DNA of 64,000 bases, taken from assembly GCF_025602895.1 (NCBI RefSeq), contig NW_026516335.1, positions 47,868 to 111,867 on the forward strand, written 5' to 3'. Below, piece after piece: positions 15,880 through 62,657 of this stretch (within the stretch, counting starts at the first letter, position 1; the number at the start of each line of letters is the position of its first letter). Under the pieces are notes generated by a model. It had not been told where the DNA came from. It did no database searches and saw nothing but the letters and a program-made list of their open reading frames with translations. The translations under genes and the position numbers were made by a program. This stretch comes from Polychytrium aggregatum. Its lineage: Eukaryota; Chytridiomycota; Chytridiomycetes; Polychytriales.

Positions 15880-16396
15880 CGCTCACGCCAACGCGATATT
15901 GGCATCTGTGGGCGAGGGGGATTGTACAAAGCTGTCACGCTGTGGGATCTCCTGGTGGCACCGAGCCGACAACAGGAGCCAAGCACAGGACCGGAATCGC
16001 TCATGAACCCTTGGGCACTCGGGTTCTTGGTGGCCTGCCGCAATGTCCAAAGATCCAAGGTCGGTGCTCCGAATAGATCCCCAGTATGACCGATCTCGTC
16101 CGAGTGGCCGAGAATGGCGCTTTCTGGACCCCCTGCGGCTGCATCGAACATGCTCATTCGAAACGGGACACCCTGGTTTGAGTCGGGGCTGTCACAGGTC
16201 CCTAATACACATTCGCCCGTCGCCCGTCATAACCAAACAGTATGTCTAAGGAAACCGACAATGTGGTTGCCTTGGAAATGCCTCCTGGAAGCAAGGGAAG
16301 GGATATGCTTCCAGTCCCAGGAGACTCAGGTTCACTCGGTACTCTGAGCAATTCATCCACCACCAGATCCGTCTCCAAGACCATGTATGCTCAGTG

Positions 16397-16490
16397 AACG
16401 AGTTCAACACATCCCAGGTGGGCTCACAGTGCCGGGAAGCCAAGAGACTCGAGAAGGCCGAGTCTCTTGATGTCGATGCACCATGGAACT
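16397..16490 (+). pseudogene. Fossil fragment of a Fanzor C-terminal zinc-finger region
   Basis: Reads NEFNTSQVGSQCREAKRLE, which aligns with NEFNTSQVCSKCLEPVRLE of the intact Fanzor at 28071-30491 (minus). The first Cys of the CxxC finger is Gly here, similarity fades after about 30 codons, and no RuvC motif is found upstream. It is a decayed element end about 260 bp upstream of the cobyrinate synthase start. The match is short but covers the most diagnostic stretch of the family. Confidence 0.7.
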
Positions 16491-16748: not shown

Positions 16749-18999
16749 ATGCCGAGCAGACCGCAACGGGCCCTGGTGGTTGCAGCTCCATCGTCCGGCT
16801 CCGGAAAGACATCCGTGACCCTCGGCCTGATTAACGCCCTCACCCGCAGAGGACTTCGGGTCCAGCCCTTCAAAGTCGGGCCAGACTTCATCGACCCGCT
16901 TCACCACACCAAAGCGGTCTCGCTGGCTTCTTCGAACCTGTGCGGCGACTCAAACTCGCAGAACCAGCCTGGCTGCCAAAGCATACAGGGCGAACCCAAT
17001 CGCCAGAGCCATCGGGATAAGTCGGGCCGCCATACCGCCGCCTCATTCAACCTTGATGGGTGGATGCTGTCCAAGGAAACAGCCCTTCGCTGTTTCCAGC
17101 AAAACTCGGCCGACGCCGACATATCGATTATCGAAGGGTGAGCAGAACCCCAGCTATCCATCCGTCCATCCATTCGTTCGCTCGCCCCTCAAAGATATCC
17201 TCGTCCTAGTCACCCGCACGATCGCCTCATCTCTGACGCTACCTTGTTGTGCCCTTCGACTCCTCGATCCCTCAGCGTCATGGGGCTCTTTGACGGCAGA
17301 GACGGCAAGACAGAAACCGGCAGCACCGCGGAGGTGAGAGAATTGCCATCGACCACCTCCCTTGAGCCATCTTCATCTTGCCTGCACCCTTGATTCCGAT
17401 CGCCCCGGCCGTGCTTTGGCAGAGCAGCAGGCCTTGATCTATCTCCCTGCCCCGACCAATGCATCGCCCGGAATCGATCCGACCGCCGCCTTCTTGATCC
17501 CTGACGGAAATGCGCAATTTCTCCGAATCCTTCTGAACTCGAACAGATGGCCAAATGGCTCGGGGCTCCGGTCGTCCTCGTCTTGGACTGCTGGGCACTG
17601 TCGAGATCGGTGGCGGCGTTTGTCAAAGGATTCGCCGAGTTTGATCCAGAGCTCAACCTGGCCGGTGTTGTCCTGAACAGAACCGGAGGTATGTCTTGCA
17701 TTGGAGCCCCGGCTCAATATGAGTATAGCTGCGACAAACCGCCGTTGCGGTGAACCAAGTCACTGGCAGCCGAGTGCCGAGTGCCGAGTGAATCGAGGCA
17801 CCGTTGGCACATTTGTCTCATTTCTCGCCTTCTGGCAGGCGACATCCACACAACATGGCTCAAGGACGCTATCCACACATACGACCCTGCAGTCCATGTA
17901 TTCGGAGGAATTCCCCGAGAAAGCAGAGTGCAGATTCCTGAGCGACACCTCGGTAAGTGAGCACACCCTCCCACCAAGCGACCACCAGAGCAACCTATGC
18001 CCGACATTCCTCTGACGATGTCCATCGCCTGCTCTAGGACTCCATCTGCCCACTGATTTCCAAAGCACCGAGTACATCAACAAGCTCGGCGATCTCATCG
18101 AAAAGCATCTAGATCTGGACCAGTTGCTTGAGGTGTCGGTACTCCCCGATCTCGACTTGGTAGCTGAGATCGAGCACCCCTTGGCCGGGTCGCTGGCACC
18201 GGTCCGTATTGGTGTGGCCAAGGACGAAGCATTCTGGTGAGACGCTTTCCCAGTCATTGGATAGCAGCGTAAGCACACGAGCACGGGCAGCACTATCCCA
18301 AACTGACCGTCGTATTGGTGCATCAGCTTCTATTATCAGGACAATATCTCGCTGCTAGCCCGCTATGGTGCCACCATTGTCTTCTTTTCGCCAATCCACG
18401 ATGCTTGTCTTCCCACGGATATCGATGGGCTGTACTTTGGCGGCGGCTATCCCGAGCTGCATGCCAAGCAGCTCTCCGATAACCACGCCATCCTCGAGGC
18501 CGTCAAAACTTTCCCTGGATGCATCTATGGGGAATGCGGAGGGCTCATGTATCTTGCCAAGACTCTTTCGTGTCCAACAGATATGGCCCATCCCACCGAA
18601 ACAGATCGGGCTACTTATCCAATGTCCGGAGTTTGGAACGGAGCCGTCGCCATGACCAAGAAGATGGAGATGTCATATGTTCAGGTTACCTCGAAGAGCC
18701 CCTTATTCGGGGTTGGAGAACAGGCTCGCGGGCATGTCTTCCATTTCTCGAGCGTCATCGAAAACAACGAACCCGAGCACGCCTTTTCGATGGAAATGCA
18801 GCGCCCCGGATCCACCCCGGTCCTTGCTGGCATCCAAGTCGCCGACCGTGTTGTAGCAAGCTACGTACACCTCCATTGGGGGAGCAATCCCGTTTTTGCC
18901 CGGAATTTTGTTGCCCAATGCCACATCGTCAAGCTGCGCCCGGGCAGCCCTGACGAGCCGCAGGTGGAACTCCTGCCGCACGAGGCCCCCACAGCATGA
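16749..18999 (+). CDS. cobB/cbiA-like: Cobyrinate a,c-diamide synthase (CobB/CbiA family)
   Basis: ATP- and glutamine-dependent amidation of the a and c side chains of a cobyrinic-acid-type corrinoid, a step of cobalamin synthesis known from prokaryotes. Six exons join in frame: 16749-17137, 17276-17333, 17547-17689, 17839-17952, 18038-18236 and 18327-18999. Motifs run in family order: P-loop APSSGSGKT, then QPFKVGPDFIDP and NLDGWML in exon 1; EGVMGLFDG across the exon 1/2 junction; GSTAEMAKWLGAPVVLV across 2/3; KDEAFCFYYQDN across 5/6; GGGYPE; the glutaminase Cys in YGECGGLMYL; and the glutaminase His in SYVHLHWGSNP. About 40 polar residues are inserted between DP..H and NLDGWML, where bacterial proteins have a short GRPSR-type turn. 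No mitochondrial presequence is obvious. Introns argue against bacterial contamination. The next gene encodes a corrinoid-binding-type protein. Actual substrate and pathway role are inferred. Confidence 0.9.
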
Positions 19000-19219
19000 T
19001 CCATGCAAATGCGTAATGATCCGCAGCACGCAACTTATGCGAGACATATCCAACACGGTTTCTCACCCTTTGTATTTGACCTTGCCTCCAACCTCCCGTC
19101 TTGCCACCTTGGTTCGCCGTTTGCGTATGTTGAAACCATTGCACTTGCCCCAATGGCTGGATATCTCCACTGCACTCGTGGAAACCTTCCCGCTCCCCCG
19201 GCGCACTTAATTTCTGTAG

Positions 19220-21060
19220 CACGAACAAATATGCATACCCTCGGCAAAGTCAGATCAAACCATTTGCTCGTTTCTGCCAAGCGGCACGGAGGTACGGTTG
19301 TTTGACTCATACTGTATCGGATATTGTGATAGTGTATACTCGCTTACCGATAGCTGGCCAGCAACTTGATGTTTTGTTACGAGCTGCTTGCGCGCCATTG
19401 CTTTGGTCTCGAGTCGAAACTGTCCCCCGCGGTTGTCTGATCCCAATCCTCGTCTCTGGGCTCGCGGTTGTATTTCATGGCCCCACTTATTGACGAACCG
19501 ATGCCTCCAAGATCTGCATTGCCCTTGGATTGGCGGACCGGCTCATCGGCATCACATCTCTCTGTGACTTTCCTCCGGGTTTGATCGAAAACACCTATGA
19601 TAGCGTCACTCGCCATCTGGTGTCGCGCTCGCTGATCGATACCTCCATAATGACGAGCCAAGAGGTGGAACGTGTCATGCAAGAGTACATGAAGGCTGGC
19701 CGTTCGACCTTTGAGATTGACCGGCACTGGCTCGGACAAGCCCAGCCCGGAATAATCCTGACTCAAGACTTGTGTCTGGCCTGTGATGCAAATGCAAAGT
19801 GAGCCTCTACTCCAATACGCACTTGGTTCCAGCGTCCTGCACCAGCTCTCTGATAGTCGGCCAAGAAAATAACACAGCAATACGTCCGTGGAAACTTTGG
19901 CTACCTCAGGGATGTTTGTTCTGCAATTCATTGCAATAGCTGCGCAAAGGCCCTGATTCTGAATCCCCGGACAATCCAAGGCATCATGGATACCGTTATG
20001 GATATCGGGCGAGCTGCCGATGCACACGACGCCGCCAACACCTTGGTTCTCGAAATGAAGGATCGCCTGCAACGTATCCGCGACCTGGTGAGCGCGAAAC
20101 CACGGCTTAAAGTCATTTCCCTCGAAGGCGTGAATCCTCTCGTCGGCGGAGGACACTGGGTAAGTGAACACACAAGTTCCGGTTCATCAGCCGAGGCAAA
20201 GAAACCATAGTGGCCGGGCAGCAGGACCCGGTGACTCAAGGAAAATCGGTTGTATCACAATCAGCATCAATGTCCATCAAGTAATATCAAGCGGCCGTCG
20301 GAGATAGAGCGTCGGAGAGGGACTCGAGCATCACTGAACTCACCCGCGCTCATCTGGAGCGAACAAAACCAGCTCAAGAGCTGCGCCGAGCGATTCTAAT
20401 CCGAGTGGTCGCATCACCTTCCCTCCTGTCTTGCCTCTCATTTCTTCTCTCCTTTACATCCATAGATTCCGGAGATGAAGATCTGGGCCGGTGGATACGA
20501 TCCGCTCTTTGAGCCAGGCTGCAACGCGCGCAAGCTGGAATGGAAGGATATTGTCAGCGCCAACCCAGAGGTCTTGATCCTGTGTCCGTGTTCGCGGTAT
20601 GCCCATGCACTGTCCCCAGTTGAGTGGAGTGCTGGATTTAAGGCTCGTCTTGGGAGCTGTGATGTCGTCTCGACTAATGCAGGGACCTGGGTTTATGCAC
20701 CTCTTGCCCACCCTTCAACATCGGTCGCTACGTCTCATGATTCGCTCCAGCAACCCGCGCTCGACTTTGGACGACACCGCGCACTTTCCATCCCTGCCGG
20801 AATTTACCCGCCTGGACTTTTTTAGGCGTGGCAATCTCTTCCTCGTCGACCATGCAATCTATTCGCGTCCTGGACCAAGAGTCGTCGATGGCATCGCCGC
20901 ACTTGCATTCATACTCCATGGCGTCGAAGTCGATATCCGGACACCCGTCCATATCATGCGGCTGAAGCAAAGTGTCGTCGAAGCTGTTTTGACAGGCAGT
21001 GCCGATGCCATGGGCAGCTGGCGGGATTGGTTTGAGGATTTGCGTGTTGGTAGTCTCTGA
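19220..21060 (+). CDS. BtuF-like cobalamin/Fe-siderophore-type substrate-binding protein
   Basis: Type III periplasmic-binding-protein fold (COG0614, BtuF branch), assembled from exons 19220-19291, 19512-19798, about 19876-20161, 20466-20596 and 20688-21060. Joining them gives family signatures: FLPSGTE then ICIALGLADRLIGITSLCD across the first junction (bacterial: LLPSATE..ALGLGDRLVGVT..CD), GGGHWIPEMKIWAGG across the third, NPEVLILCPC, and near the end VDHAIYSRPGPRVVDG followed by LAFILHG. In bacteria this family delivers vitamin B12 to BtuCD. Here no ABC permease or ATPase is visible, so the protein may bind corrinoids in another compartment. It sits about 220 bp downstream of the cobyrinate synthase, same strand. 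The true N-terminus lies in an upstream exon that I could not fix; a stop precedes the first exon after its acceptor. Confidence 0.8.
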
Positions 21061-28070: not shown

Positions 28071-30491
28071 TCACTTTGGCAGCCTCCGAGTGAAGACCGC
28101 CGGTCGCTCTCCGATCTCCACAATCGACCTGCACACTATGATCATGTTGCGCGCCGCATTGACGCCGCGATTCCACACTGTCCGGCAGCTGGGATTCTTG
28201 CAGCTCCTGACAAAGTGGGAATTCGCAACACTGGGCGCATCGAGTCCTTCCAACCGAACTGGCTCCAGGCACTTGGAGCACACTTGCGAGGTGTTGAACT
28301 CGTTCGTCGAGACTACCTTGACGCTTCCATGATGGTGATTGGGACGGCGTCGGTGGTGCTCGAATTGCTCAAAGTACCGAGCAAACCGCTGCCTCCGAGG
28401 GCTGGATGCATAGCCCTTGCCTTGTCGCCATGACGCATTGCCAAAGGCGATCACCACATCGGTCCGTATCGGGGCGTGCTTCAGGACGGCCTTGCACATC
28501 TTGTCAACGGCCACTTGGCGCCTCTTGTGGCCCGTGAAGCGATGGTGACGGGCCTTCTTGCCAAGGTGGAAGTCGAGCTGCACTCGCAGCTCCGGTCGCA
28601 GGACATGGGTGAGATGGACCTTGAAGGCCTCCGAGGACGACACCTTGGGCGAGGGGGTGGTCGACATCCAGGTCTCGATGCTGAGTCGCTTCTTCATGGT
28701 ATTGTGCCACTTGGTATTGGACGTATGGCCACACATTTGCTGGTAGTGGCCATTGGAGAACGAGACCACCTCGTCTTGGTGGCCCGGTGCTTGGATGGCC
28801 GCCGTGAAGATGGAGCCGACTCCAGGATCGATGCCAATCCAAGTGGTGCGATCGGGGTCTGGGTCACCGATGTGGGCCTGGATGCGCTGCTCGGCAGTCG
28901 GAGGAGGCTCGATGGTCTCGGTGTGATCGGTTCGACGCACAAACTTGACGAGGCCGATGGTGCATCCAATGCCATCGGTGCTGATCTCGTAGTTGAACAG
29001 CTTCTTGTTCACGTCCCGCTCTTGGAAGAGGGAACTACGCAGCTTGAAGCAACTGCGCCAGAGACCATCCTGGTTGTTGATGCCGTCATCACCTTCTTCC
29101 TTGAGCATGTCCCTGGTGAGTCCAAGGCGCTTCTTTGGACCCAGGAGTTGCCAAAGAGTGACCGTATCAATCTTGATGTACTTGGCCTTGGTGGTGCATA
29201 GAGGAACCATCGTGCACACGGCCGGAGGAGTGTCGAGAGCGAGCTGCTTGAGTGCCCAGTTGAGTCGGGCGGCCAGCTTGTTGATCTTGGACTTGGTGGT
29301 GCCGAGCTCCGACTTGGCGTTGGTGAACCTCTTGTCGTCGGAGGGAATGCCTTGGGTAGTGAGCTTGTCCAGCTTGGCCTGGCGCTGCAGCTCGGTGACT
29401 CGGAGGGCGGGCATGTCATGGTCGATCCACTTGTGGACATTGTCGACCATCTTGTCCCGGGCGAGGATTCTCACATGGTGTGAGAGGCGATGGAGGGCCC
29501 GGAAGCGGTCCTGGTCGCTGCTGTACCGAAACTCGTCCAGGACGTGGCCAAAGTCCGGGTAGAGGAACTCGATATCGGCCTTGGGTGGAGTCTGCCCTGG
29601 TTTCTCGAAGAGTTCGAGACAGGCCTCGATGGCTTCGTGCTTGTGCTTGTTGGCTGGGAAGACGGCAGCGCAGAAGCGGCGAAGGAGTCGCCAGTAGGCC
29701 AGGTTGAGGTGGGTGGTGCAGTTGGTGGCATAGGCATTGACAGCGAGAGTGAGAAGCTGACTGTGAGCACCATCAGGCAGACGAGGGGCCGGAGGCAGGT
29801 CTGCGTGCCGAGTGGTCTGGTAGTCGCGAAAGGAAGCGACCAGATGCTCGTTGTACTGCTCGATGTCCCCGGTCGGGGAGAGGGCATCGGCCTCGACGAT
29901 CGTGAAGCATTGGCGGATGAAAGCAGGGGTGGCCTTGGAGATGACGGGGATGGGAAGATCCTGCTCGATGCACCGGAGGATGTGCAGGTTGAGCAGCCTG
30001 GATGCCTCGAACTCGATCTGGGTCATGGCCTCGACGGTGGCCTGGATCTGGGTCATGGCCTCGACGGTGGCCTGGATCTTGTCGCGGAGAGCGGGATTGA
30101 GACAACAGCCATCCATCGTCTGCTTGAAGCAGCTGAACTGAGGGGCGGATGACCTTCCACCCACGAGTGGGACGACAGAACTCTTGAGGGGCCGGTATTT
30201 GGGACATTTGCTGGTGTTGCTTCGCTGATGATCGGTGCCATCGCACTGGCGACATCGCTTGATGGGACCAGATGAGGGACCAGATGAGGGACCAGATGAG
30301 GGACCAGGCTCGGTGGGATCGACATCCATTGGATCTGCAGAAGCAGTGGTGGTGAGCGACGGAGCAACAGACGACCAAGCATGCGTGGGGTCAGAATACG
30401 AACCAGAGACAGGCTCCGACTGTGACTTGGCTTTCTTGGGCCTGGTAGGCTGAGGCTGGCCATCACCGGCACCCTTGCGCTTCGGAGGCAT
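28071..30491 (-). CDS. Fanzor (TnpB-like RNA-guided nuclease family), RuvC-III Asp replaced by Gly
   Basis: Single-exon, 806 codons from MPPKRKG (ATG at 30491; an in-frame ATG 43 codons upstream is less likely). Order of features: basic nuclear-localisation-like start (PKRK, RPKKAK); a run of GPSS repeats; an N-terminal zinc knuckle CRQCDGTDHQRSNTSKCP; helical recognition region with a tandem ATVEAMTQIQ duplication; RuvC-I Asp at residue 555 in WIGIDPGVGSIF; FGNASW and GKGYASSP; then STNEFNTSQVCSKC and SCKNPSC forming the C4 finger; and the last block VWNRGVNAARNM. Family members have RD at that place; here residue 776 is Gly (codon GGC at 28166-28164), one A-to-G step from GAC. Known Fanzors are RNA-guided DNA endonucleases with DED-type RuvC sites, so this copy is probably catalytically impaired though otherwise intact. 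Confidence 0.9.
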   Translation of the reverse strand: MPPKRKGAGDGQPQPTRPKKAKSQSEPVSGSYSDPTHAWSSVAPSLTTTASADPMDVDPTEPGPSSGPSSGPSSGPIKRCRQCDGTDHQRSNTSKCPKYRPLKSSVVPLVGGRSSAPQFSCFKQTMDGCCLNPALRDKIQATVEAMTQIQATVEAMTQIEFEASRLLNLHILRCIEQDLPIPVISKATPAFIRQCFTIVEADALSPTGDIEQYNEHLVASFRDYQTTRHADLPPAPRLPDGAHSQLLTLAVNAYATNCTTHLNLAYWRLLRRFCAAVFPANKHKHEAIEACLELFEKPGQTPPKADIEFLYPDFGHVLDEFRYSSDQDRFRALHRLSHHVRILARDKMVDNVHKWIDHDMPALRVTELQRQAKLDKLTTQGIPSDDKRFTNAKSELGTTKSKINKLAARLNWALKQLALDTPPAVCTMVPLCTTKAKYIKIDTVTLWQLLGPKKRLGLTRDMLKEEGDDGINNQDGLWRSCFKLRSSLFQERDVNKKLFNYEISTDGIGCTIGLVKFVRRTDHTETIEPPPTAEQRIQAHIGDPDPDRTTWIGIDPGVGSIFTAAIQAPGHQDEVVSFSNGHYQQMCGHTSNTKWHNTMKKRLSIETWMSTTPSPKVSSSEAFKVHLTHVLRPELRVQLDFHLGKKARHHRFTGHKRRQVAVDKMCKAVLKHAPIRTDVVIAFGNASWRQGKGYASSPRRQRFARYFEQFEHHRRRPNHHHGSVKVVSTNEFNTSQVCSKCLEPVRLEGLDAPSVANSHFVRSCKNPSCRTVWNRGVNAARNMIIVCRSIVEIGERPAVFTRRLPK

Positions 30492-30741
30492 GGGGACAGA
30501 GAATGCTGGATGCCTGCCAGTGGTACTGGTCAGAGCAGAGACTTTTTTTATCGTACAATGGCGCGATGATCCGATCAAGGCGAGATGAGGGAAGAAAGCA
30601 GCAGGACGAAGGTGTGGCATTTATACCCGAGAGCAGGAACCCGTCTTTGCGGGCTGGTTGGGAAGCGACCCTGTTCAAAAATCGCCGAGAGGTTCAAGCC
30701 AGGGATGTGAACGCGAAAATGGCGGCTTGATTGGAGGGAAC

Positions 30742-31674
30742 TCAACCCCAGAAGCGCATCGCTCGCTCAATCAGCCGTGGGAAGACATCTGGAAGCACCC
30801 TCCGCACGGCGGACTCGAACAGGGTCACCATCCCGACCCTGAACCCCTCGGAGGCATTCAGCGCTGCTGCCTTCCTGTACTGATGCTTCACAACCCCAAA
30901 GAAGTTCTCGATGGGATTGAAGTCGGGCGAGGCAGGTGGGGTGAAGATCACTGACCATCCTCGGCGCTCGATGCAGTCCAGGACAGCCCTTGTCTTGTGC
31001 ATGCTGACATTGTCCATCACAATCACAGAGTCGTCTGGGAAGGTCGCTCGCTCAAAGAACTCGACCATCGAGTGTGTCTTGAATGATGTGGGGATGTACA
31101 TGCGATGCAGCACACCAGAGTGGTTGATGGCAAATGCAGCCGAGACAGACTTGTGCTTCATGTTGTGGCGCCTCTGCAGTCGGGCACCTCTCTCAGAGTA
31201 CCCATGGAGGGGGAAAATGGATTTCCTGATCCCCGTCTCATCGACAAAAACGAATCGCCGCGGGTCGATGGAGCGGACCTGGTCCCTGAACTGTGCCACT
31301 CGCTCATCCAGTCGCTTGGACTTGTAGAGGTGTGTTGCCCTCTTGTGTGAGAGACCTGCTCGGTGGATGGCAGTGTGGCAGAGTGAGAGCGACACTTTCC
31401 TCTGGAGGATGGACTCGAGCTTGCATCGCAACACAGGACCAGTCTGGAACGGGTCCTGTTCAATCAGGGTGCGAATGACTGGACATGCCTGCTCGAAGAA
31501 AGTGGATCTGCGAGCTGGGACCCGGGATGGGTCATCCAGCTTGCATCCTCGGTGCCATCGATGGATGGTGCTCTTGGACACACTGAATATGGAGGCAACT
31601 TTACGCAGGCTATGGATGAGGGTGTAGCATCGCAATGCGGCGGTGCGAAAGTCGGATGTGTGGCGAATGGTCAT
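30742..31674 (-). CDS. Tc1/mariner (IS630 superfamily) DD34E transposase
   Basis: Intact single-exon protein of 310 residues. The N-terminus is a helix-turn-helix (SLRKVASIFSVSKSTIHRWH), followed by a second DNA-binding part (LSLCHTAIHRAGLSHKR). The DDE catalytic core is complete: first Asp in FVFVDETGI, second Asp in VIVMDNVSMHK and Glu in SPDFNPIENFFGVVK. There are 34 residues between second Asp and Glu, which assigns it to the DD34E group. Length is normal for the family. It cuts and pastes the surrounding element at TA sites. No frame damage is seen, so the element could be recently active. Confidence 0.93.
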   Translation of the reverse strand: MTIRHTSDFRTAALRCYTLIHSLRKVASIFSVSKSTIHRWHRGCKLDDPSRVPARRSTFFEQACPVIRTLIEQDPFQTGPVLRCKLESILQRKVSLSLCHTAIHRAGLSHKRATHLYKSKRLDERVAQFRDQVRSIDPRRFVFVDETGIRKSIFPLHGYSERGARLQRRHNMKHKSVSAAFAINHSGVLHRMYIPTSFKTHSMVEFFERATFPDDSVIVMDNVSMHKTRAVLDCIERRGWSVIFTPPASPDFNPIENFFGVVKHQYRKAAALNASEGFRVGMVTLFESAVRRVLPDVFPRLIERAMRFWG

Positions 31675-31732
31675 GGCCAGCCCGCGATAACATTGGGTAA
31701 CAAAATATTCGATGAATGGTCAAAAACCCGGG

Positions 31733-39960: not shown

Positions 39961-40757
39961 GCGACGACAACAGGCCCTCCTCGGCTGCCCCGGCGATTCC
40001 ATGGAGTATTGGGATTATCTGCACCAACGAGTGCTGCAGACATGACTCAAGCGTTAAATCAGTCGCGATACATCGCCTACAGTGAGTCAGAACCCACGAG
40101 GCCAAACAGATCGAGCTTGTGGGTGAGCGCGAGGTGCTGACATCCAGAGGATGAAGAACAAAAGTTACAGCCTTGGAGAAAATCCTGAATAAATACTCGG
40201 TCTCCGACCTACTCGATAGCGCACTCAGGAACTTGGGGAAATGTATGATTTGCTGTATGTGATTTGTGACGATCATGTCGGTGGCAAGGAGCGTCCGAAA
40301 ACAGTTGATGATTACTCTCCACCGATTGAGCAGCTTCATAAAGCCTATTCAGAATGGAACGAGATTGTGATGTCTCGGGTGGTGACGGGAGTGCTCAAAG
40401 TACTTGGCGACCCTGAGTCTGCGTGGACTCAATGCAAGCCATTGACTTGCTTCCGCTAGGGATTCCGAACGGCAGTCACAATGTCGGTCTCAATTGGACA
40501 TAGTGTTTGGTCAGCGCTGGTGATGGATGAGCGAGTATTCAAAAAACAGTGTCAAGCCAACCTCAAACATGAGCGTCGATTTCGTTTCAGGTGCGAACTA
40601 TGGGAATCAAAATCTTGATGAACCACAGGAACCGACTGAACAAGAGAAGCTCGAAAGAAAGACAGGTACTCTGGATGGTCCGGCAGACCAAGATCTTTGA
40701 TCCCGGCGCAGTGAGGAATAACGGAAGCGGACCAACAAAACAGAGGAGCAAAAAGAG
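39961..40757. other. Spacer, no clear gene
   Basis: Downstream of LEO1. A 72-codon plus-strand frame at 40241-40459 (MYDLLYVICDDH...) was not recognised and has no exon support. Confidence 0.35.
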
Positions 40758-40830
40758 CGACCACACCAGGGGTCGAACCTGGAATCTCTTGATTCGTAGT
40801 CAAGCGCCTTATCCATTTGGCCATGCGGCC
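40758..40830 (-). tRNA. tRNA-Arg(ACG), cassette copy 1
   Basis: 73-nt cloverleaf on the minus strand: 7-bp acceptor stem GGCCGCA/TGTGGTC with G-T pairs, anticodon ACG in CTTGACTACGAATCAAG, T loop GTTCGAC. A T-run follows (TTTTT after the 3' end). It is 8 nt downstream of a tRNA-Trp. Confidence 0.95.
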
Positions 40831-40838
40831 GAGAGGGT

Positions 40839-40910
40839 TGAGGCCTGCCGGATTTGAACCGACAACCTTCTGATCTGGAGTCAGACGCGCTACCGTTGCG
40901 CCAAGGCCCC
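40839..40910 (-). tRNA. tRNA-Trp(CCA), cassette copy 1
   Basis: 72-nt cloverleaf: acceptor GGGGCCT/AGGCCTC, anticodon CCA in TCTGACTCCAGATCAGA, T loop GTTCAAA. No poly-T between it and the following tRNA-Arg, so the two are probably one Pol III transcript. Confidence 0.95.
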
Positions 40911-41487
40911 ACCTTGTCGCTGAATATCTGATATGGATATATAATCTATAGACCATCAACCCGTAACAACGACAATAATCTATCCGCCTTCGACCCCACA
41001 AAGAGAAACAAGGCAGTCCGTCGTGGCCAGTGACTCGGGGATGACATCCACAGTTCGCCCAATGTTCAAATAACGAGCTATCCCTTTGGTGGACATTGAT
41101 TCTGGTGATCATGGGAGCGTCGCTCACCAACAACGATCTATGAAGTCAAACAGGAATCCGCATTTCGAAATCATGACCCAAACAATAACAAATCTGCAGT
41201 GACTTCTTTGATATTTGGCCACAAGCACATCAGAGAGGTATGTCGTCCCGGTGTATGTGGCCGAACATACGCCTTCATCAATCTTGAACAGCTCTGTATC
41301 AGGACACGAGGCTCATAGGCGTCATATTATGACTTCATTTCAAGCTAACAATCACAACCAAAGGTACCCCTTGGCTCTTTTCGACAACAGAGTGCGACCT
41401 CTGTTAGCTCTGATACGATGGAGAAAGATTATCATGGCTCACATATTCAGATCAATTTCGATGGCCTCATACTCCCATCCAGGCGGA

Positions 41488-46062: not shown

Positions 46063-46134
46063 GGGGCCTTGGCGCAACGGTAGCGCGTCTGACTCCAGAT
46101 CAGAAGGTTGTCGGTTCAAATCCGGCAGGCCTCA
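46063..46134 (+). tRNA. tRNA-Trp(CCA), cassette copy 2
   Basis: Same 72-nt sequence as the copies at 40839 and 48051, on the plus strand. Confidence 0.95.
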
Positions 46135-46142
46135 ACCCTCTC

Positions 46143-46215
46143 GGCCGCATGGCCAAATGGATAAGGCGCTTGACTACGAATCAAGAGATTCCAGGTTCGA
46201 CCCCTGGTGTGGTCG
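46143..46215 (+). tRNA. tRNA-Arg(ACG), cassette copy 2
   Basis: 73 nt, identical in structure to the other copies; 8-nt gap after tRNA-Trp; followed by CTCTTTTTCTTTT, a Pol III terminator. Confidence 0.95.
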
Positions 46216-47969
46216 CTCTTTTTCTTTTGCTTCTGAGGGATTTTTTTTTTCTTTCTTCATTGTGCGCCGCCGTGGCGATGCACTAGTCATCAGGACCCCG
46301 TTTCTCGGGTCTGGTCCATCGTCAATTTGTTCGCTTATCGGAAATTTTGACCTTTTGCTTTAGTGCTCAGTTCCTGGTTCAAGTGTTGAGTCTGGACGTT
46401 TGCTGGCTGATCAATATCGGGCGCTGCATACATTCGAATATTCAAGCGGCTGACAGAGGCCCGACGACGCCATGATTTGCGGGCAATCACTCACTCATTA
46501 GAACAATAGCATTGTGGATTCGACCCCTCGCCCCAACACACTTTCTTATCGGCAAATAACACACAAGCACGCACACTCACACACACATATATATATATAC
46601 CCAAGGTTATTGAGTACTCTTGAATCTTTGTGTTGCTGGTACATTATCATCCGATAGTTGAACCGCACTGGGCGCTGAGTAGTGATTGCATCCAAGATTT
46701 TCGACAATCACCTTCGACAGATATGGATCTTGGTCAAAATTTGTCGTTGTTCAATGCACTATTCTATTAGCCTAGCTTTATCAATCTTGAATGGCCTTTT
46801 TGGGACTCGTATCAACCCAAGGCAGATATCGATGGCTTGTCCAATATAAGCAATATCATCCAGCAGGTAGCGTGCCCTCGGGGGTTCAGAAGCATTTTTG
46901 GTGTTGATGCTCTCTATATCGTTCCGTATATTGATATTGGCGTCTTGGGTGGCCGTCTCACCCACAAGTATTGAAAATCCTGTCAGGTCGAGTGAGAGGA
47001 GCCCAAATTATTACAGGAATATCGGGCAAACTCGGCCAACGAAGGTTACCGCTTTTTTTATCACTGAAAATTGACCACCTTTGCACCGAACGTTCTGAAA
47101 TCAATATAATTTTGTTTAGGCCTCTTCGGTCTTCAAAGTAGAGTATAGACGCGAATTCAAATTTTAATAAAAAAATATTCCGCCTTCGAACAGCCTGGTG
47201 TCCATCATTCACCCAAGGGCAGTGGTTCCAATGGGTCCCTTTCGAACAGGCTGGCTCGCGATTTTGTCGGTCAATGAATCTCCAGGTTGGCTAGCTTTTT
47301 GCACCAACCACCATGGAAGACCGGCTGGAGCATCGCGTTGTTGGTATATTTGTTAGAACTCAGATAGGTACCTTACTCGGGAGCTGAGGTCGTTTCTTGC
47401 CCTGAATCATCGACTGCAGCACTTGAGGTAGATCCATTTTTGATGGACTGTAGTCGGAAGAGTAATAATGGAAGTGCTGGAAAATAGAATGAGAAAAAAG
47501 ATTCATTTGAGCGACAGCACAATCAACATGCGATAGAGCCCCGCTTAGGCATAGAGTAGAACCAGCTCTGTGTACGAGGCTCACGTGAGGGACAGATCCA
47601 CTCAGTTTGCTCGAGTGTACAAGTCAAGGCCAACTCTATGCTTGTATAGGACGATTGCCAGTATTGCTCTTCACCTTTAGGGATCAACTAAACGATCAAT
47701 CCAACTAGCCATCTTGTCGATTTCTGCTCATCTTGACGCGATGTTGGAAATCGAAAGCACTAGAATAGTCTCTCCGGCTCAATTGTAGTTTGGGTAGTGG
47801 CCGAAGCGGATACTCAGAAAACATAATATCAGAACATCAGACTATCATATTATTATACCGTCAATGCAAATAGATAGGGTATATCCGTGCAACCAGGGAT
47901 ATCATAAAAGGCTATTCGGATTGGGAGGAATAATGGAAGCGGACCAACAGAACAGAGGAGCAAAAAGAG
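46216..47969. other. AT-rich spacer between tRNA pairs
   Basis: About 1.75 kb without a recognised gene. It holds a CA/TA microsatellite (46571-46600). Two overlapping minus-strand frames (46759-46965 and 46958-47212) look protein-like but match nothing I know. Confidence 0.45.
46571..46600. repeat. CA/TA microsatellite
   Basis: Run of CACACTCACACACACATATATATATATA, simple dinucleotide repeat. Confidence 0.85.
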
Positions 47970-48042
47970 CGACCACACCAGGGGTCGAACCTGGAATCTC
48001 TTGATTCGTAGTCAAGCGCCTTATCCATTTGGCCATGCGGCC
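47970..48042 (-). tRNA. tRNA-Arg(ACG), cassette copy 3
   Basis: 73 nt on the minus strand. Its 3' flank (GGAAGCGGACCAACAGAACAG, 47935-47955) nearly matches that of copy 1 (40728-40748), so flank and tRNAs were duplicated together. Confidence 0.95.
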
Positions 48043-48050
48043 GAGAGGGT

Positions 48051-48122
48051 TGAGGCCTGCCGGATTTGAACCGACAACCTTCTGATCTGGAGTCAGACGC
48101 GCTACCGTTGCGCCAAGGCCCC
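48051..48122 (-). tRNA. tRNA-Trp(CCA), cassette copy 3
   Basis: 72 nt, same sequence as the other copies, 8 nt from tRNA-Arg. Confidence 0.95.
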
Positions 48123-50909: not shown

Positions 50910-53900
50910 TCAGGTACTTGTTTGCTGCGATTGGTCAGCCCGAGGGGCTGCTGTCCACGACAGACATTTGGTTGCGATGTCATCCAGCACCGCCACGACA
51001 TCCAGCCAGATCGCTGGTCTGTTGTTCAGTACTCGGCTGCGCTTGGCACGCCATCTTCTCTGTTTTTCAGGATCGGTGGTGAGTGGTCTTGTTGGCACTC
51101 GAGCCAACTTGGGGAGTGCGTCGATTGCAAGGTCGATGTAGGTGATGCCTTCGGGGATCGATGTGGGGTGAACATATTTCTCGAGTCGGTCCTTGGCTCG
51201 GACACATTCTGCTGCATGTTTTCTGTTGACATACACCTTGGGGCCGTTGGGTCCGGTCTTTTTGCACTCCTTGTCGGGTTTAGGTGGGAAACACCCGACT
51301 CGCCACAGGAGTATTCTCCTTGCTTGGGCAACTGTTGCTACTGGCATCCGCGCTGTCAGGATGGGGTCGCCTTCCCACTTGTAGGTGCCTGCGATCGACA
51401 TTACTTTCTCGGGCTTCCGCTCTTTTTCAAAACTGTGAACGATCACCGCCTTCTTGATGGGTGTGCCGGTGCCAGTTCCAGATTCAAACAGGTCCAGTCT
51501 TGTTCTGTCTGGGGAGTCTCGGTGCTGTCTCTCGAGCTCCTTCCATGCGGCGCTTCCGGTCAGCTTGGAGAGTATCTTCTTGTTTGGGTTTCTTGGGGGC
51601 AACTCGGTGATGTACTTGAGCACGTGGGATCCAAGATATCCTGGGTCGTCTTTCCTGTCGAACCACCGTCCGAAGCACTTGATCATCAGTATCTGTTTTC
51701 TGGTCGCCATGGTGTAGATTCCTGTGGCTGTCATGACAGCCGGACCAGACGCGTTCTGGCGGATGTTGAGTGCCGATCGCAGTGTGTCCAGCATGCACCC
51801 CTGTAGAGTGTTCATTATCGGGCCCTTCATGTTGACGATGGCAAGGCCGTACTCCAGACGGGGCCGGATGAAAGCCTTGTAGATTTTGACGATCAGTCCA
51901 GGGTAGACTGACTTGCTGAAGATGCCGTGTTCCTTGAGCTCTTTGGTTCGGAACTGGGCTTTGTGCTTTAGTTGAGTGACGTGGGCCTCTGCGTCGATGC
52001 CATCAGGGCCGAACTGCACCCCGAGGTACTTGTAGGTGCTGGTGACGAAGCTAAGAGGTGTTCCCTTGAGTGTGATTGGGGTCGGGTTTGCTTCCGCGGT
52101 AAGCACTTCGCATTTGGTCGGAGAGAAAGCGTAATTGTTTTCGTCTGCGTGTGCTTCGGAGATGTCAACAAGTCTTTGGAGGTCTTCTTGGTTTTTTGCT
52201 ACCAACGCCATGTCGTCCGCGTACATGATATTGTTGATGATGAGGTTCCCTATTCTGGGTGATGTGACTGCTCGTAGGTTCTGTGCGAGGTCATCCATGA
52301 AGAGGCTGTAGAGGGTGGGTGAAAGAACCGACCCTTGCAGCAGCCCGATCTCCAGCCAGTACGGCCGGGATTTGGTGCCGCTCACGAGAACAGCGGTGGT
52401 CACGTTGTCGAAGAGCGCGCGTAGGATGCGGATGGTATGCGGGGGGATGTCTCGTTGCTCGAGTTTGTGCCAGAGCCGATCCCGGTCAACTGAGTCGTAC
52501 GCGGCTTTGATGTCCATGAACGCGATCCACGGGGTGTGGCCGTCGTTCTGTAGGAACTTGACGATTGAATCGAGTGCGAATACCTGGTCCAGGGTTCCCC
52601 TGTTGCTGCGGAAGCCTCCTTGGGAGATGTCGATGGGGCCCATCTCCTGGAGGAGTCGGCTATGTAAGATCCTTTCGAATACCTTTCGGACAACTTGTAG
52701 CAGAGAGATCGGGCGATAGTTCTTGATGTCCTCTTCTTCGCCCTTCTTCTTCCAGATGGGGTGGTTGATGGCGACATTCCATTCTTGAGGGACGATGCCG
52801 GTCCACATGCACCAGTTGAAGAGCTGACGCAGCCAATCCGAGACTTGGTCGGTTACTGGGTGTAGGAGCTCGGCACTGATCCCGTCGGACCCAGGGGCCT
52901 TGTGTTTCCCCATGCGTCGGATGGCTGTTTTTACTTCTTCTGCTGTGATTTCGCGGCCCAAGAGGCGACTGAATAGTATTTCCTGAGGACGCGGTGTATC
53001 GTTGGCTTCTTGAACACCGAGACGACTTGAGATGTTCCCAAAGTGGGCCCGGTACTGGTCCATGCTGTCTTGGTCTTCGGAAGAATCGACCGGTTGAAGA
53101 AGCCGCTTTTGACCTTGTCTCGCTTGCTGATTTCCTTGAGGAGCTCAGAGTCCGATTTGGTGGAGAGAGACTGGGCCCAGGTGTTGTAGAAGGCGCGTTT
53201 CTGTCGTCGTATGAGGTCCTTGAGTTTGTTGTTCATGTTTTCGTAGTCGGCCATGGCCTGCAGTTGGATTCTCGAGCCTTGTGGCGACTGGTTCACGATT
53301 CGATAAGCCGTGTTTCGTCGTTTCTTGATGTCAGCCATTTCCGGGGTCCAAAAGCCGTTGCGGGGAGCCGGGCCATCCTTCTTTCGCTTCCCAATGACGA
53401 TTTGTGCCACCGCTGTGACGTGGTTCTTGATGATATTCCACCCAGATTCAACGAGGGCTTCGGCGTCTTCGCGTGCCATGGGTCCATCCTCTTGTGGTAG
53501 CCGGGTTCCCAGCTGTGTGATCTGCTCTACGACTACTGGGTGGTGGACTCTAAAGGCTTCCGTGTATTGCTGGAGGGTTTCGGGATCTTCGAGCTTGTTG
53601 GTTCGCCACACGAGGATTGGTGGGCGGGCAGGCTCTCTGGCGGCGTTCCATTCAAGTTCCATCGACACCATGCGGTGGTCTGAGTTACAGGTATCGTTGG
53701 AGTGGACCGTCACCGTCTTGGCGTTGTGTCTCAGTGCCGTCGAGACAAAGAAGAGGTCCAGTACTGAGTGTTGTGGTTTCTTCCCGTTGACGACGTGGGT
53801 CCAGTGTTGCCCCGTGGGGTTGGTCGAATCCACGAATTCCAGGAAGCCGCCCGCTACAGCTGTCCGCAGTGGTTGCAAACGGTTGGCGGTTTCATGGGTG

Positions 53901-54409
53901 TCTCTGCTTGTCTGGCCCATGCGGGTGTTGAAGTCGCCCATGATCACAGATGGGATAGGATTGTTCATTTCTGTGGTGTTGGTCTTGATGGCCGACAGGG
54001 CTTCTCGGAACTTTTGCAGGGCTGCCGCATTGGCTGATAGAGCAGGCTTGAGGTAGAAAGATCCAAAGACGATGCCTCGGAACTTGAACCAGATGCTCGT
54101 GTGATGAGGTCCAACGCGGAAGTTGCTAAAGTCTTCGAGGTTGGTGGTTTTCGGGTTCCGAATGAGGGCGATTCCTCCGGTGCCTCTTGCGAGGCCGTCG
54201 ACAGAGACATACGGCTCTCGGGTTTCGAAAACTATGAGGTTCTTGTAAGGTCCGATGGATTGCTGTGGTTTGAGCCACGTTTCTTGGACTGTTATAAAGT
54301 CGAGGTCTTTTGCTTTTACCATTTCGATAACCTCGTGTATAGAGGTTTCAAGTCCGCAGACATTCAGGGTCGCGAACCTAATAGTGGGCGTAGGTTGGGG
54401 CTGCATCAT
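50910..54409 (-). CDS. LINE ORF2: APE-type endonuclease and reverse transcriptase, one frameshift
   Basis: The endonuclease frame starts at ATG 54409 (MMQPQPTPTIRFATLNVCGL) and holds the APE signatures VQETWL, GDFNTR, LDLFFVS and SDHRMVS. The RT frame ends at 50910 and contains KAPGSDGISAELL, NYRPISLLQVVRKVFERIL, GGFRSNRGTLDQVF, FMDIKAAYDSVDRD, GLLQGSVLSPTLYSLFMDDL and the catalytic YADDMALV. A C-terminal Cys/His knuckle follows (CFPPKP..EC...HAAEC). Between about 53145 and 53060 the reading frame must move by -1 to join the two; no classical slippery heptamer is present there, so mutation or sequence error is the simplest reading. No RNase H was seen. Confidence 0.88.
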
Positions 54410-56022
54410 TTGCGGGGAGGAGTGGTTCCTTCGCGTCCGCCTTTTTCTTGGCGGCCTGGTTTGTTGCGAGCCAGTTCCTTCGCCTTAGCAGTGATCTGCT
54501 CGGCGACGGCTGGGTCGTTCATCTTCCGTTGGTACAAGGTCGCCGTGAGGAGGTCATTGGATTCCGCACATATCCTGGCAGCGCGTTCAATGAAGCTCTT
54601 GATTTGGAGCTTCTTGGACTCCTTCTCGGCCTCGGTGATCTTCGACACGTCCATGTGTGCGACTTCAGTGAATTTCATGTCCGTAATGTGCTTCAAGAAT
54701 TCTTCTCTCGAGCTCTTGTCTCTGAGAACAAACTCACAGACGCTGTTGTTGACAAAGCTGATATTGAGAATCTGGTTGGTGGCAAAGCCCCTCTCCTTGA
54801 AAGCTTGTCTGATCGTACGGTAGCTACCCCGAGGGATACCCTTGACGTAAACCCAAGCGGCGTTGTCCATCCTATCCTTTAAGGGTCCTTCCTCGACAGG
54901 GACCGAGGATCTGATCATCCTGAATGGCGTGGCAGTCTTGGGCACCAGCCACTTGCCGTCGGTGGGGTCACGGCCGCGGAGGATGGCGCCGATGGCCTCG
55001 TTCTTCTTGCCGGCATCGGCCTCCTGGTGGACTTTTTCGAGGGCCGCCAGCTTGCGCGCGTCGATTGTCTTGTTGTCGGGCTGCTTCTTGGCACCCCGCT
55101 GGGCGGCTGCTGCGTAGGATGTCGGAGCTGGGCGTTCCGAGATGGCCCGGGACGCATGCTCCAGCTCGGAGGCGAGCGTCTGCATGCACTCGGTGGCGCT
55201 CTGGGTCAGGGCCTTGATTCTAGCAGCTTCCTCGGGTTTGCTGAGGTCCAGCTTGGCGAGTTCTTCGTTAATCTTCTGAGCTTTCTTGAGAAGCTCACTC
55301 TGGATGTGCTGAAGCTGCTGTTGGGGACTCTGCTTCTTGCGCATGTCGGTGGCGCAGACGCGCTTCCCGACAGCCCTGGCATCGGCGAGGGAGGCCCGTT
55401 GTTCGAAAAGCTTCCATCCGGCTTCGTCATGGCGGGTCATCAGGCCCCAGAATACGAGGATGGAAAAATGCTTCCCGCATTCTTCCACCTTGGTGGCGGC
55501 GTCCGGGCTCATCAGCATGTTCTTGCAGACGACCGAGTGCTGGGCGTCGTCGATACGCCAGGCGGGGGGCTTGCTCCCTCTGCAACGGGAGCATTGAACT
55601 TGGTCTGCCTTCAGAGCGAAGACAAACCTAAAGCGGCGGTAGGTGATGTCTTTGAAATCGACCGGGATGAAGTCCTGGTCGGTGAGAGTGTTGTTCTTGG
55701 CCTTCTCGAGGATCGAGAGGGCCCACTTCTTTTCTTCAACCACGTCGGGCGGGTTGGGAAAGATTGCCGAATCTGCATAGAGCTCTTCGATAATTTCTTC
55801 GACGGTCTTCTTGCGACCGACGTGCAGCTGGATGGGCTCACCATCCCTGCGGTGCTTTTTGGTGGGTGCTGATTCGGTGGCCTCGGTGATACTGGCGCTA
55901 CTGACCTGATGGCCGTTGCTTTCTAGGCTGCGATTTTCGTCCGTTTGGCCTGGTTCTTGGGCAGCAGGGCTGCCCGAGGTGTCTATGGCCATCTCGTTGA
56001 TGGCCGTTTGGGTCGGGGGCAT
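54406..56022 (-). CDS. LINE ORF1 nucleic-acid-binding protein
   Basis: 538 codons from ATG 56022 (MPPTQTAINEMAIDTSG) to a stop at 54406-54408. Features in order: disordered acidic start; a conserved block around EIIEELYADSAIFPNP and ITYRRFRFVFAL; a Cys cluster (CSRCRGSKPP ... CKN ... ECGKHF); a long coiled coil (LQHIQSELLKKAQKINEELA); and an RRM-like C-terminal domain (AWVYVKGIPRGSYRTIRQAF ... CEFVLRDKSSREEFL). It resembles ORF1 proteins that package LINE RNA. Its TGA stop overlaps the ORF2 start as ATGA. An in-frame extension upstream to 56286 runs through the tRNA and is not coding. Confidence 0.82.
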   Translation of the reverse strand: MPPTQTAINEMAIDTSGSPAAQEPGQTDENRSLESNGHQVSSASITEATESAPTKKHRRDGEPIQLHVGRKKTVEEIIEELYADSAIFPNPPDVVEEKKWALSILEKAKNNTLTDQDFIPVDFKDITYRRFRFVFALKADQVQCSRCRGSKPPAWRIDDAQHSVVCKNMLMSPDAATKVEECGKHFSILVFWGLMTRHDEAGWKLFEQRASLADARAVGKRVCATDMRKKQSPQQQLQHIQSELLKKAQKINEELAKLDLSKPEEAARIKALTQSATECMQTLASELEHASRAISERPAPTSYAAAAQRGAKKQPDNKTIDARKLAALEKVHQEADAGKKNEAIGAILRGRDPTDGKWLVPKTATPFRMIRSSVPVEEGPLKDRMDNAAWVYVKGIPRGSYRTIRQAFKERGFATNQILNISFVNNSVCEFVLRDKSSREEFLKHITDMKFTEVAHMDVSKITEAEKESKKLQIKSFIERAARICAESNDLLTATLYQRKMNDPAVAEQITAKAKELARNKPGRQEKGGREGTTPPRK

Positions 56023-56110
56023 GTGGAGGGGGTCGTTGGTTGAGAGTGTTGAGCGGTTTGTTGATAAAAAGAGCGACGGAGAGCCTGTGCCTGTGGATCC
56101 AAAAGTTGAG

Positions 56111-56141
56111 ATCAAGGTCAAGCTCGCATGGTTGGTCCAGT
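56111..56141 (+). repeat. Target-site duplication, tRNA-side copy (31 bp)
   Basis: Same 31 bp as 50631-50661; here it continues into the complete tRNA-Gly gene. Confidence 0.9.
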
Positions 56142-56196
56142 GGTAGAATTGCCGCCTGCCACGCGGCAGACCCGGGTTCGATTCCCGGACCATGCA
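56126..56196 (+). tRNA. tRNA-Gly(GCC)
   Basis: 71-nt cloverleaf: acceptor GCATGGT/ACCATGC, anticodon GCC in CCGCCTGCCACGCGG, T loop GTTCGATTC, discriminator A. ATTTTT follows as terminator. The LINE lies 15 bp upstream and is transcribed away from it. Confidence 0.96.
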
Positions 56197-56445
56197 CATT
56201 ATTTTTCGCCTCCAGCAGACATCCCTGCCGGCTGGGTCGGTCAGTATCATCTCCCAGGATTTGCTTGTCGGGCTTGTGTGCCACAAAAGATCGCAGCTTC
56301 TTAATAATCTAATGGGTCATATCTCATATCGATTAATTGTCTTGGATTACGCTGCGTCCAGCTTTCTTTCTTTTTTCGATTCGGGATTGCGAACATACCT
56401 TCTGGACATACACGAGCCACCGGGGTCGTGTGACACCTCGATCTT

Positions 56446-57236
56446 ATGCTGTTCATTTTACGTGGAATTTGGATAGCTCGATTTGCGACCGAGACTAAGA
56501 GTCAGTTAAAAGCTATTGTACTGCAACAGTGCGTTGGTGAGGCTTTGAATCGGGGTTTTCATCCTGAAGGTACTGATATTGGTGGGACTGAAACATCTTC
56601 ACGTTCAGATTTGGAAGGAGCGGATTTTATTGCCAAATGTAAAGCTTGGATGCAAATTCGGACCGCTAGACAGTATGGTTTCAGTGTACTGCATATTTTA
56701 TCGAGTACCTTTTTATGGAAGTGCTCTATGCGTACCTAATCTTGCTACACAGGCGCTCTCAGGATCGGGCCCTGTCCAGACCGGGACCAAATCAGGCCGA
56801 CATCCATGCAAGCGCACAGCTCCATCTCGTAACCGGCGTTTTCACCGTCGATGGCTTTCTTTTTAAGAGCGCTCGAGTGTCATTTGTGTTTAACTCGAAT
56901 GGATCGCCAGTTTGTCCTTTATGTGCATCTCTTCCACAGCGTGCGCGTCGGTCGTACGTCATAACAACGATCGTGTTCACGACCAAACAACCGAGCAGTC
57001 GGGATCAGCATCGCAGACTGTTTCTTTTGTTTGGGTATGACATCATCCACTCCTGGGGTGTCTCGTCGTCCTCTTTGTCCTGGTACAGCTGTATGTGGGA
57101 TTCCCTGAGGTGTTCCAGCCTTTGCCTTTATACTAACATTTGGCACCCAAGCAGTGTCCATCAAAACGTTGCATGGAAGGCATCCGTATTCCACCACACC
57201 AGCCTCACGGCTATCGGTGTGGTATTCACGATCTGA
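56446..57236 (+). pseudogene. Possible remnant of another LINE reverse-transcriptase C-terminus
   Basis: The frame from 56715 reads AQLHLVTGVFTVDGF ... SPVCPLCASLPQ, which resembles the conserved LLTGxYxL...CPLC zinc-knuckle end of many LINE ORF2 proteins. No catalytic RT motif is seen upstream, and frames shift repeatedly. The left two thirds lie within the inverted-repeat arm and so recur at 61719-62322. Confidence 0.3.
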
Positions 57237-61399: not shown

Positions 61400-61718
61400 G
61401 ATAGCGACGCGACTTGAACAGCGATGGAGACCCGAACGAGAGGTGATAGTCTCAAAGCCTTTCGAATAAGCTCTTCAAGCGATGGAATGGATCGTCGGCG
61501 CGGAGGATCTTGATAACTTTCAATAGATATTGGACAGGAAGAATACTGGGTCAAGTCAAACAGCCGATGAAGGAAGGAGAATCTCCTTAGTTGGAAGTAT
61601 AATTGATGAGGCTCAGTGTCCAGGCCCGAGAAAAGGAGGTGATCACAAAGTCAAGCCTCATCCAGACGCAAGCTCCTTGACAGAGGCAGAAAACCCAGAA
61701 GATGATTCAATTCAAGAT
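61400..61718. other. Short spacer between receptor gene and inverted-repeat arm
   Basis: About 320 bp upstream of the receptor start, presumably its promoter; nothing else recognised. Confidence 0.4.
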
Positions 61719-62571
61719 TGGATGATGTCATACCCAAACAAAAGAAACAGTCTGCGATGCTGATCCCGACTGCTCGGTTGTTTGGTCGTGAACACGATCG
61801 TTGTTATGACGTACGACCGACGCGCACGCTGTGGAAGAGATGCACATAAAGGACAAACTGGCGATCCATTCGAGTTAAACACAAATGACACTCGAGCGCT
61901 CTTAAAAAGAAAGCCATCGACGGTGAAAACGCCGGTTACGAGATGGAGCTGTGCGCTTGCATGGATGTCGGCCTGATTTGGTCCCGGTCTGGACAGGGCC
62001 CGATCCTGAGAGCGCCTGTGTAGCAAGATTAGGTACGCATAGAGCACTTCCATAAAAAGGTACTCGATAAAATATGCAGTACACTGAAACCATACTGTCT
62101 AGCGGTCCGAATTTGCATCCAAGCTTTACATTTGGCAATAAAATCCGCTCCTTCCAAATCTGAACGTGAAGATGTTTCAGTCCCACCAATATCAGTACCT
62201 TCAGGATGAAAACCCCGATTCAAAGCCTCACCAACGCACTGTTGCAGTACAATAGCTTTTAACTGACTCTTAGTCTCGGTCGCAAATCGAGCTATCCAAA
62301 TTCCACGTAAAATGAACAGCATAAGATCGAGGTGTCACACGACCCCGGTGGCTCGTGTATGTCCAGAAGGTATGTTCGCAATCCCGAATCGAAAAAAGAA
62401 AGAAAGCTGGACGCAGCGTAATCCAAGACAATTAATCGATATGAGATATGACCCATTAGATTATTAAGAAGCTGCGATCTTTTGTGGCACACAAGCCCGA
62501 CAAGCAAATCCTGGGAGATGATACTGACCGACCCAGCCGGCAGGGATGTCTGCTGGAGGCGAAAAATAATG

Positions 62572-62642
62572 TGCATGGTCCGGGAATCGAACCCGGGTCT
62601 GCCGCGTGGCAGGCGGCAATTCTACCACTGGACCAACCATGC
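62572..62642 (-). tRNA. tRNA-Gly(GCC), second copy
   Basis: Exact reverse-complement counterpart of 56126-56196, with the same terminator and the same 15-bp gap to a LINE 5' end. Confidence 0.96.
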
Positions 62643-62657
62643 GAGCTTGACCTTGAT

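Follow-up and report, generated by a model that had tools for sequence, protein, structure and literature searches.

Two adjacent spliced genes

Our analysis concerns two adjacent genes in a 64,000-nucleotide stretch of contig NW_026516335.1; we refer to this whole stretch as the window. The first gene, at positions 16749-18999 of the forward strand, has six exons and a 524-residue product, identified below as CobB (cobyrinate a,c-diamide synthase). The second, on the same strand, also has six exons, ends at position 21060, and encodes a soluble protein of BtuF fold (hereafter, the binding protein). Exon boundaries are in Table 1. The CobB introns are 138, 213, 150, 85, and 90 bases long. All five have GT-AG ends and each introduces an in-frame stop codon if retained. 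The introns of the neighbouring gene are also GT-AG; on retention, four of the five introduce an in-frame stop and one shifts the frame. Note that exons of both genes are matched directly by unspliced bacterial homologues. Furthermore, in an alignment of the binding protein with nine bacterial relatives, the splice junctions are crossed without gaps.

The conserved core of the second gene is formed by five exons, spanning 19254-21060, in a continuous frame. Upstream, enumeration of canonical splice sites gave a single 5' exon, with two candidate start codons. The initial annotation placed about 220 bp between the two genes. This distance has to be revised: 16 or 37 bases separate the CobB stop codon from the predicted ATG, and about 255 bases separate the same stop codon from the conserved core. 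The N-terminal extension encoded by the 5' exon has a hydrophobic moment of up to 0.63. A fusion of CobB and the binding protein was considered separately and rejected; among the donor patterns tried, no join preserves the frame.

The opposite strand carries, about 0.7 kb further downstream, a spliced gene for an axonemal outer-arm dynein intermediate chain. Its matches in the Protein Data Bank are dynein axonemal intermediate chain 1 and a flagellar 78-kDa chain. Elsewhere, the window encodes Leo1, WSC, GH18, class C G-protein-coupled receptor, and reverse transcriptase domains. This content fits a chytrid-like fungus. Because the axonemal dynein gene adjoins them, we consider the CobB and binding-protein genes to be nuclear genes of a flagellate. 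Logically, since both proteins are of bacterial families, they might derive from bacterial contamination or a chimeric contig, and the initial annotation had named a chimera as a possible refutation. This is not borne out. The eukaryotic neighbours and the ten GT-AG introns, of which nine would introduce an in-frame stop and one would shift the frame on retention, lead us to reject the explanation, to which we give next to no weight. In addition, base composition here resembles that of the neighbouring window, and the best prokaryotic proteins found are only about 41-49% identical, depending on the stretch and method.

A probably functional CobB

The first gene had been described as a six-exon CobB/CbiA gene with ATP-binding and glutaminase motifs, and we agree. 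The P-loop, the cysteine of the ECGG motif, and the C-terminal histidine are all there. The protein exceeds the Pfam cut-offs for CbiA (PF01656, 69.2 bits) and GATase_3 (PF07685, 104.4 bits). It also passes the NCBIfam CobB equivalog NF002204 (450.4 bits versus a cut-off of 254) and TIGR00379 (411 bits versus 261). Each of the 56 near-invariant columns, defined by at least 95% conservation in 67 prokaryotic CobB rows, is kept. These include Cys371 and His482, which we take to be catalytic residues. The domain order is also that of bacterial and archaeal CobB/CbiA. Unlike those proteins, the window CobB has a nuclear gene with five introns, a long branch, and an insert of about 34 residues. The latter stretch of exon 1 (about residues 57-92) is missing from the aligned bacterial protein. 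Five in-frame GT-AG excisions are possible within it, all with weak donors. Hence, it may be an insert or an unrecognised small sixth intron. Among solved structures, none matched the protein at E ≤ 0.01.

CobB is the enzyme that amidates cobyrinic or hydrogenobyrinic acid at side chains a and c. Because the near-invariant residues are fully conserved, the window CobB is probably a working enzyme, with amidation as its predicted reaction. A eukaryotic CobB that keeps every near-invariant residue tested implies that, in a eukaryote, the ring-amidation step is under selection.

The binding protein and its Dehalococcoidia-type relatives

The binding protein exceeds the cut-off for Pfam family PF01497 (Peripla_BP_2; 31.3 bits versus 27.5) and keeps all 30 columns conserved in at least 93% of 173 family rows. 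Residues C60, C130, C133, and C263 fall in family-conserved columns; speculatively, these four cysteines could contact a metal or cobalt. A scan of prokaryotic genomes provided relatives, and the best 80 matches listed are referred to as wider-family loci. Closest among these is L008, a protein from a Dehalococcoidia metagenome-assembled genome (44% identity, E 3e-77); the other 79 are at most 37% identical. Identity to L008 is 41-44%, and the two proteins have the motifs PSGTE, QDxCxxC, SxEGxNPLVxGGHW, and PGPR in common. Differences from L008 are the five introns, the N-terminal extension, and the CobB neighbour.

At E ≤ 1e-84, 32 of the 197 genomes of L008's order, its own included, carry members of a subfamily. 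The motif SxE[GA]xNP occurs in 19 of 21 bacterial subfamily rows checked, including L008, and in the window protein. A careful 37-row tree joins the window protein, on a long branch of 2.06, to L008 (support 97/90), inside a 22-row subfamily (100/100). We conclude, from motifs and phylogeny, that the window protein belongs to a Dehalococcoidia-type subfamily of Chloroflexota.

The subfamily was also sought beyond L008's order. Across 301 genomes of L008's phylum, 105 match at E ≤ 1e-40, and only L008's own genome stood out. Four other groups match the binding protein in 26 of 57 genomes (E ≤ 1e-70), 23 of 95 (E ≤ 1e-60), and 8 and 18 of 376 (both E ≤ 1e-75). The subfamily motif was found in none of 25 top loci fetched from these four groups. 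Protein matches on plasmids (8 and 238 records) were all below 60% identity, the 238 being CobBs compared with the window CobB. At the DNA level, plasmids matched CobB in 3 records, over a stretch of just 127 bases. Viral contigs gave 7 and 35 pattern matches, none encoding a relative.

Two acquisitions are favoured over one

The initial annotation suggested that the two genes were possibly acquired together. The window CobB has, by the comparisons made here, no clear donor, and its scores favour phyla other than that of the binding protein's relatives. The strongest scores come from two phyla. One includes L025's genome, and 17 of its 118 genomes match at E ≤ 1e-85, with a best value of 1.1e-104. 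The other, that of the Rokuibacteriota record L059, has matches in 40 of 95 genomes (best 3.5e-101). Scores are lower in the phyla of L087 (8 of 149 genomes at E ≤ 1e-75, best 6.8e-96) and L016 (6 of 118 at E ≤ 1e-85, best 2.5e-89). Nearly all subfamily-bearing genomes, 28 of 30, have a CobB match at E ≤ 1e-20. In 27 of the 28, values range from 2.6e-82 to 1.2e-73, and in the remaining one a split gene gives 3.3e-39. In a 68-row tree, the window CobB stands alone, on a branch of 1.25, without a partner inside a starred 50-row group. Its position in a careful 37-row tree is weak. Constraining it with two Dehalococcoidia-type CobBs gave p = 0.0355 in the approximately unbiased (AU) test; this is a marginal rejection, obtained with a long branch. 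The trees give no support to a joint acquisition, and we therefore favour two separate bacterial acquisitions.

A single transfer would require an unsampled bacterium with a Dehalococcoidia-type binding-protein gene beside CobB. A comparable gene order does occur: in L059 and L060, CobB is directly upstream of a family member, on the same strand and in the same order as in the window. The poor resolution of CobB in trees is also compatible with one event. Conversely, the L059 and L060 binding proteins are 33-34% identical to that of the window and, by the rows of their genomes, fall outside the subfamily. CobB is near the binding-protein gene in none of the 20 subfamily loci, and the AU result is again unfavourable. 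Hence, we regard a single transfer as unlikely, and the suggested joint acquisition is not supported.

The bacterial gene pairs span 8364-10855 in L059 and 346-3000 in L060, with a match-to-match distance, from CobB to the family member, of about 300-470 bp.

A candidate corrinoid-handling module

Bacterial gene neighbourhoods connect the binding-protein family with corrin metabolism. Genes of the cbiD/T/L/F/G/H set are in the fetched flank of 8 of the 20 subfamily loci. One CbiH and one CbiF from these flanks were checked, and both are above the NCBIfam cut-off. CobB itself is in the fetched flank of 7 of the 80 wider-family loci, in at least four named groups; at two of the seven, it is immediately upstream and on the same strand, as in the window. 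Note that this count leaves out L006 and L007, which were fetched for their CobB. At plasmid loci L001-L005, CobB was in the flank of none of the five. At L225, L229, L231, L237, L238, L239, and L243, a conserved MFS transporter gene separates the corrin genes from the binding-protein gene, which is transcribed away from the transporter gene.

Fold was assessed with the L008 protein, as a bacterial stand-in for that of the window. The model has a mean predicted local distance difference test (pLDDT) score of 91.9 and the best Foldseek match is BtuF of V. cholerae (E 1.1e-15). The ligand is likely a tetrapyrrole. Among tetrapyrroles, a corrinoid is favoured because of the bacterial gene context, rather than the fold. 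The L008 protein begins MKICSLLPSG at its first ATG, which is at the first strand, and, judged from the sequence, it has no evident export signal. The most likely reading of the window protein is a corrinoid-binding protein inside the cell.

With moderate confidence, we interpret the two genes as a corrinoid-handling module, of bacterial ancestry, in a flagellated and probably chytrid-like eukaryote. CobB would act in the cytosol, with ATP and glutamine, on a cobyrinic-acid-like corrinoid, amidating its acetate side chains a and c. Its soluble neighbour, of BtuF fold, would bind corrinoid inside the cell and hold, or pass on, the substrate or product. The basic N-terminal extension may direct the binding protein to another site in the cell. 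The corrinoid would be supplied from outside, by bacteria or prey. The two genes would most likely have come from different bacterial lineages and then been retained side by side. The earlier description of both as spliced genes of bacterial kinship, in corrinoid-linked families, is supported by the CobB equivalog and by the corrin genes and CobB found beside bacterial relatives. The salvage or remodelling role that the initial annotation proposed is putative. Should both genes function as their sequences suggest, unfinished B12-like molecules are handled by a eukaryote itself, which then does more than import the vitamin in finished form. The pair is also a case of prokaryote-derived genes, functionally related, that adjoin each other in a eukaryote, and corrinoid salvage in early-diverging fungi would become directly testable.

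Several observations weigh against such a module. At seven of the eight subfamily loci concerned, the corrin genes are separated from the binding-protein gene by a transporter gene on the opposite strand. Hence, proximity may reflect shared ancestry and not an operon. The L008 locus has no corrin neighbour, and, of 40 genomes in which a wider-family member occurs, just 21 have a CobB match at E ≤ 1e-30. Both window proteins are on long branches in trees. The binding protein scores 18 bits against the NCBIfam BtuF equivalog, for which the cut-off is 234. The initial annotation called it BtuF-like; with this cut-off missed widely, 'BtuF' is a fold label only. The window protein keeps 73, and has lost 32, of the 105 columns that are conserved in at least 95% of 21 bacterial subfamily rows, so its ligand may have changed. 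In the Foldseek ranking, heme-binding proteins come directly after BtuF, and cobinamide-bound BtuF further down; they are so near BtuF that fold does not single out B12. No other corrin gene came to light when nine further reference proteins, of which one was a fragment, were compared with the window. Finally, CobB alone yields no usable cofactor. Hence, the module would require more late-pathway genes at other sites, or else some unusual use for the amidated product.

Some of these points, namely the closeness of heme-binding proteins and the lost subfamily columns, would also suit a different tetrapyrrole. CobB would then amidate a siroheme- or heme-like macrocycle, and its neighbour would bind heme. 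Indeed, CbiA-type enzymes also act on Ni-sirohydrochlorin, as with CfbB (Ni-sirohydrochlorin a,c-diamide synthase), against which the window CobB scores 408 bits. However, this misses the NCBIfam CfbB cut-off of 560, and we reject a CfbB identity, whereas the CobB cut-off is exceeded by a wide margin. A corrinoid is also favoured by the corrin genes that lie close to some of the binding protein's bacterial relatives. We consider another tetrapyrrole to be quite improbable.

Comparison with known corrinoid systems

Eukaryotes are thought to import finished, or nearly finished, cobamides. Synthesis of B12 is held, in the available text of PMC8085122, to be confined to prokaryotes. The same text (Orlowska et al. 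2021) describes eight B12-related enzymes in non-Dikarya fungi, lists none of the eight for nine chytrid proteomes, and does not mention CobB, CbiA, or BtuF. The accessible portion of PMC10406608, citing PMC8085122, includes 'cobalamin synthesis proteins' among fungal gene losses. Reports of a eukaryotic CobB/CbiA did not turn up in our literature search, which covered mostly titles and the starts of abstracts, and few subscription journals; as evidence of absence, this is weak.

Bacterial-type corrinoid genes do exist in other eukaryotes. Examples, from the available text of each paper, are algal remodelling by COBT/COBS/COBC (PMC4850488) and cobS with cbiX in Chrysochromulina (PMC4580454). 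In contrast to the window genes, these have lower-ligand, loop-assembly, or chelatase functions (PMC4850488, PMC4580454). Neither CobB nor any word with cobyrin- is found in the text available for PMC4850488.

The binding protein shares a fold with periplasmic B12-binding BtuF, by way of its bacterial relative L008. However, the window protein misses the BtuF equivalog cut-off, and BtuF is only about 20% identical to L008, which starts with no evident export signal. Another parallel is CBA1, a eukaryotic B12 uptake protein. According to the sections of PMC10828217 available, CBA1 has a fold resembling BtuF and occurs in five fungi, including Spizellomyces and Allomyces. Were the window protein CBA1-like, its position beside CobB would be due to chance. 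This seems very improbable. According to the same sections, CBA1 and BtuF have little similarity in sequence, and the diatom protein has a signal peptide (PMC10828217). By contrast, identity between the window protein and its bacterial relative is 41-44%. The CrCBA1 residues FFN.E and WFE were sought by eye in the window protein, without an aligned CBA1. There is no FFN; a WFE is near the C terminus and is not in the ends of L008 or L226. Moreover, proximity to CobB recurs in bacteria.

Beyond the module itself, we can envisage a flagellated fungus that does part of corrin biosynthesis. Incomplete corrinoids, for example cobyrinic acid, would be imported, amidated by CobB, and held by an intracellular carrier of Chloroflexota origin. 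Further bacterial-type late-pathway genes, elsewhere in the genome, would finish the molecule. We put this forward tentatively and think it rather doubtful. If true, action on the corrin ring ahead of the cobinamide stage would be known from a eukaryote for the first time.

Other features of the window

Table 1. Exons of the two genes, and further features, by window position
Feature	Position	Strand	Remarks
CobB exon 1	16749..17137	+	ATG 16749; P-loop APSSGSGKT; contains the stretch of about 34 residues
CobB exon 2	17276..17333	+	VMGLFDG
CobB exon 3	17547..17688	+	
CobB exon 4	17839..17952	+	
CobB exon 5	18038..18236	+	
CobB exon 6	18327..18999	+	glutaminase domain; GECGG Cys371; His482; stop at 18999
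Binding-protein exon 1	19016..19124	+	ATG 19016 or 19037; basic N-terminal extension, not in bacterial kin; least certain exon
Binding-protein exon 2	19254..19291	+	ICSFLPSGTE
Binding-protein exon 3	19512..19798	+	TQDLCxxC motif
Binding-protein exon 4	19910..20159	+	SLEGVNPLVGGGHW
Binding-protein exon 5	20466..20596	+	
Binding-protein exon 6	20751..21060	+	SRPGPRVVDGI; stop at 21060
Decayed Fanzor-like fragment	16136-16483	+	
Cas12f1-like/TnpB open frame	28071-30620	-	849 residues; PF07282
Transposase open frame	30742-31719	-	DDE_3 (IS630/mariner-like)
tRNA-Trp/tRNA-Arg tandem, three copies	40757-40911, 46063-46216, 47969-48122		
LINE-like element	50910-54484	-	reverse transcriptase (PF00078)
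Inverted repeat, two arms	54768-57055 / 61713-64000		tRNA-Gly gene in each arm
Class C receptor	57528-60736	-	7tm_3; adjoining PBP-like domain (PF12849)

A decayed fragment ends about 270 bases upstream of CobB. It is 45% identical (E 1e-18) to the C-terminal part of a protein encoded further downstream, an open frame with a Cas12f1-like/TnpB nuclease domain, which we presume to resemble eukaryotic Fanzor proteins. The window also has a transposase open frame and a long interspersed nuclear element (LINE)-like element, with a further open frame adjoining. The class C receptor and the adjoining PBP-like domain are perhaps one spliced receptor. Copies of the tRNA tandem are 97-100% identical over about 160-215 bases, and the arms of the inverted repeat, each of 2288 bases, are 99.9% identical.

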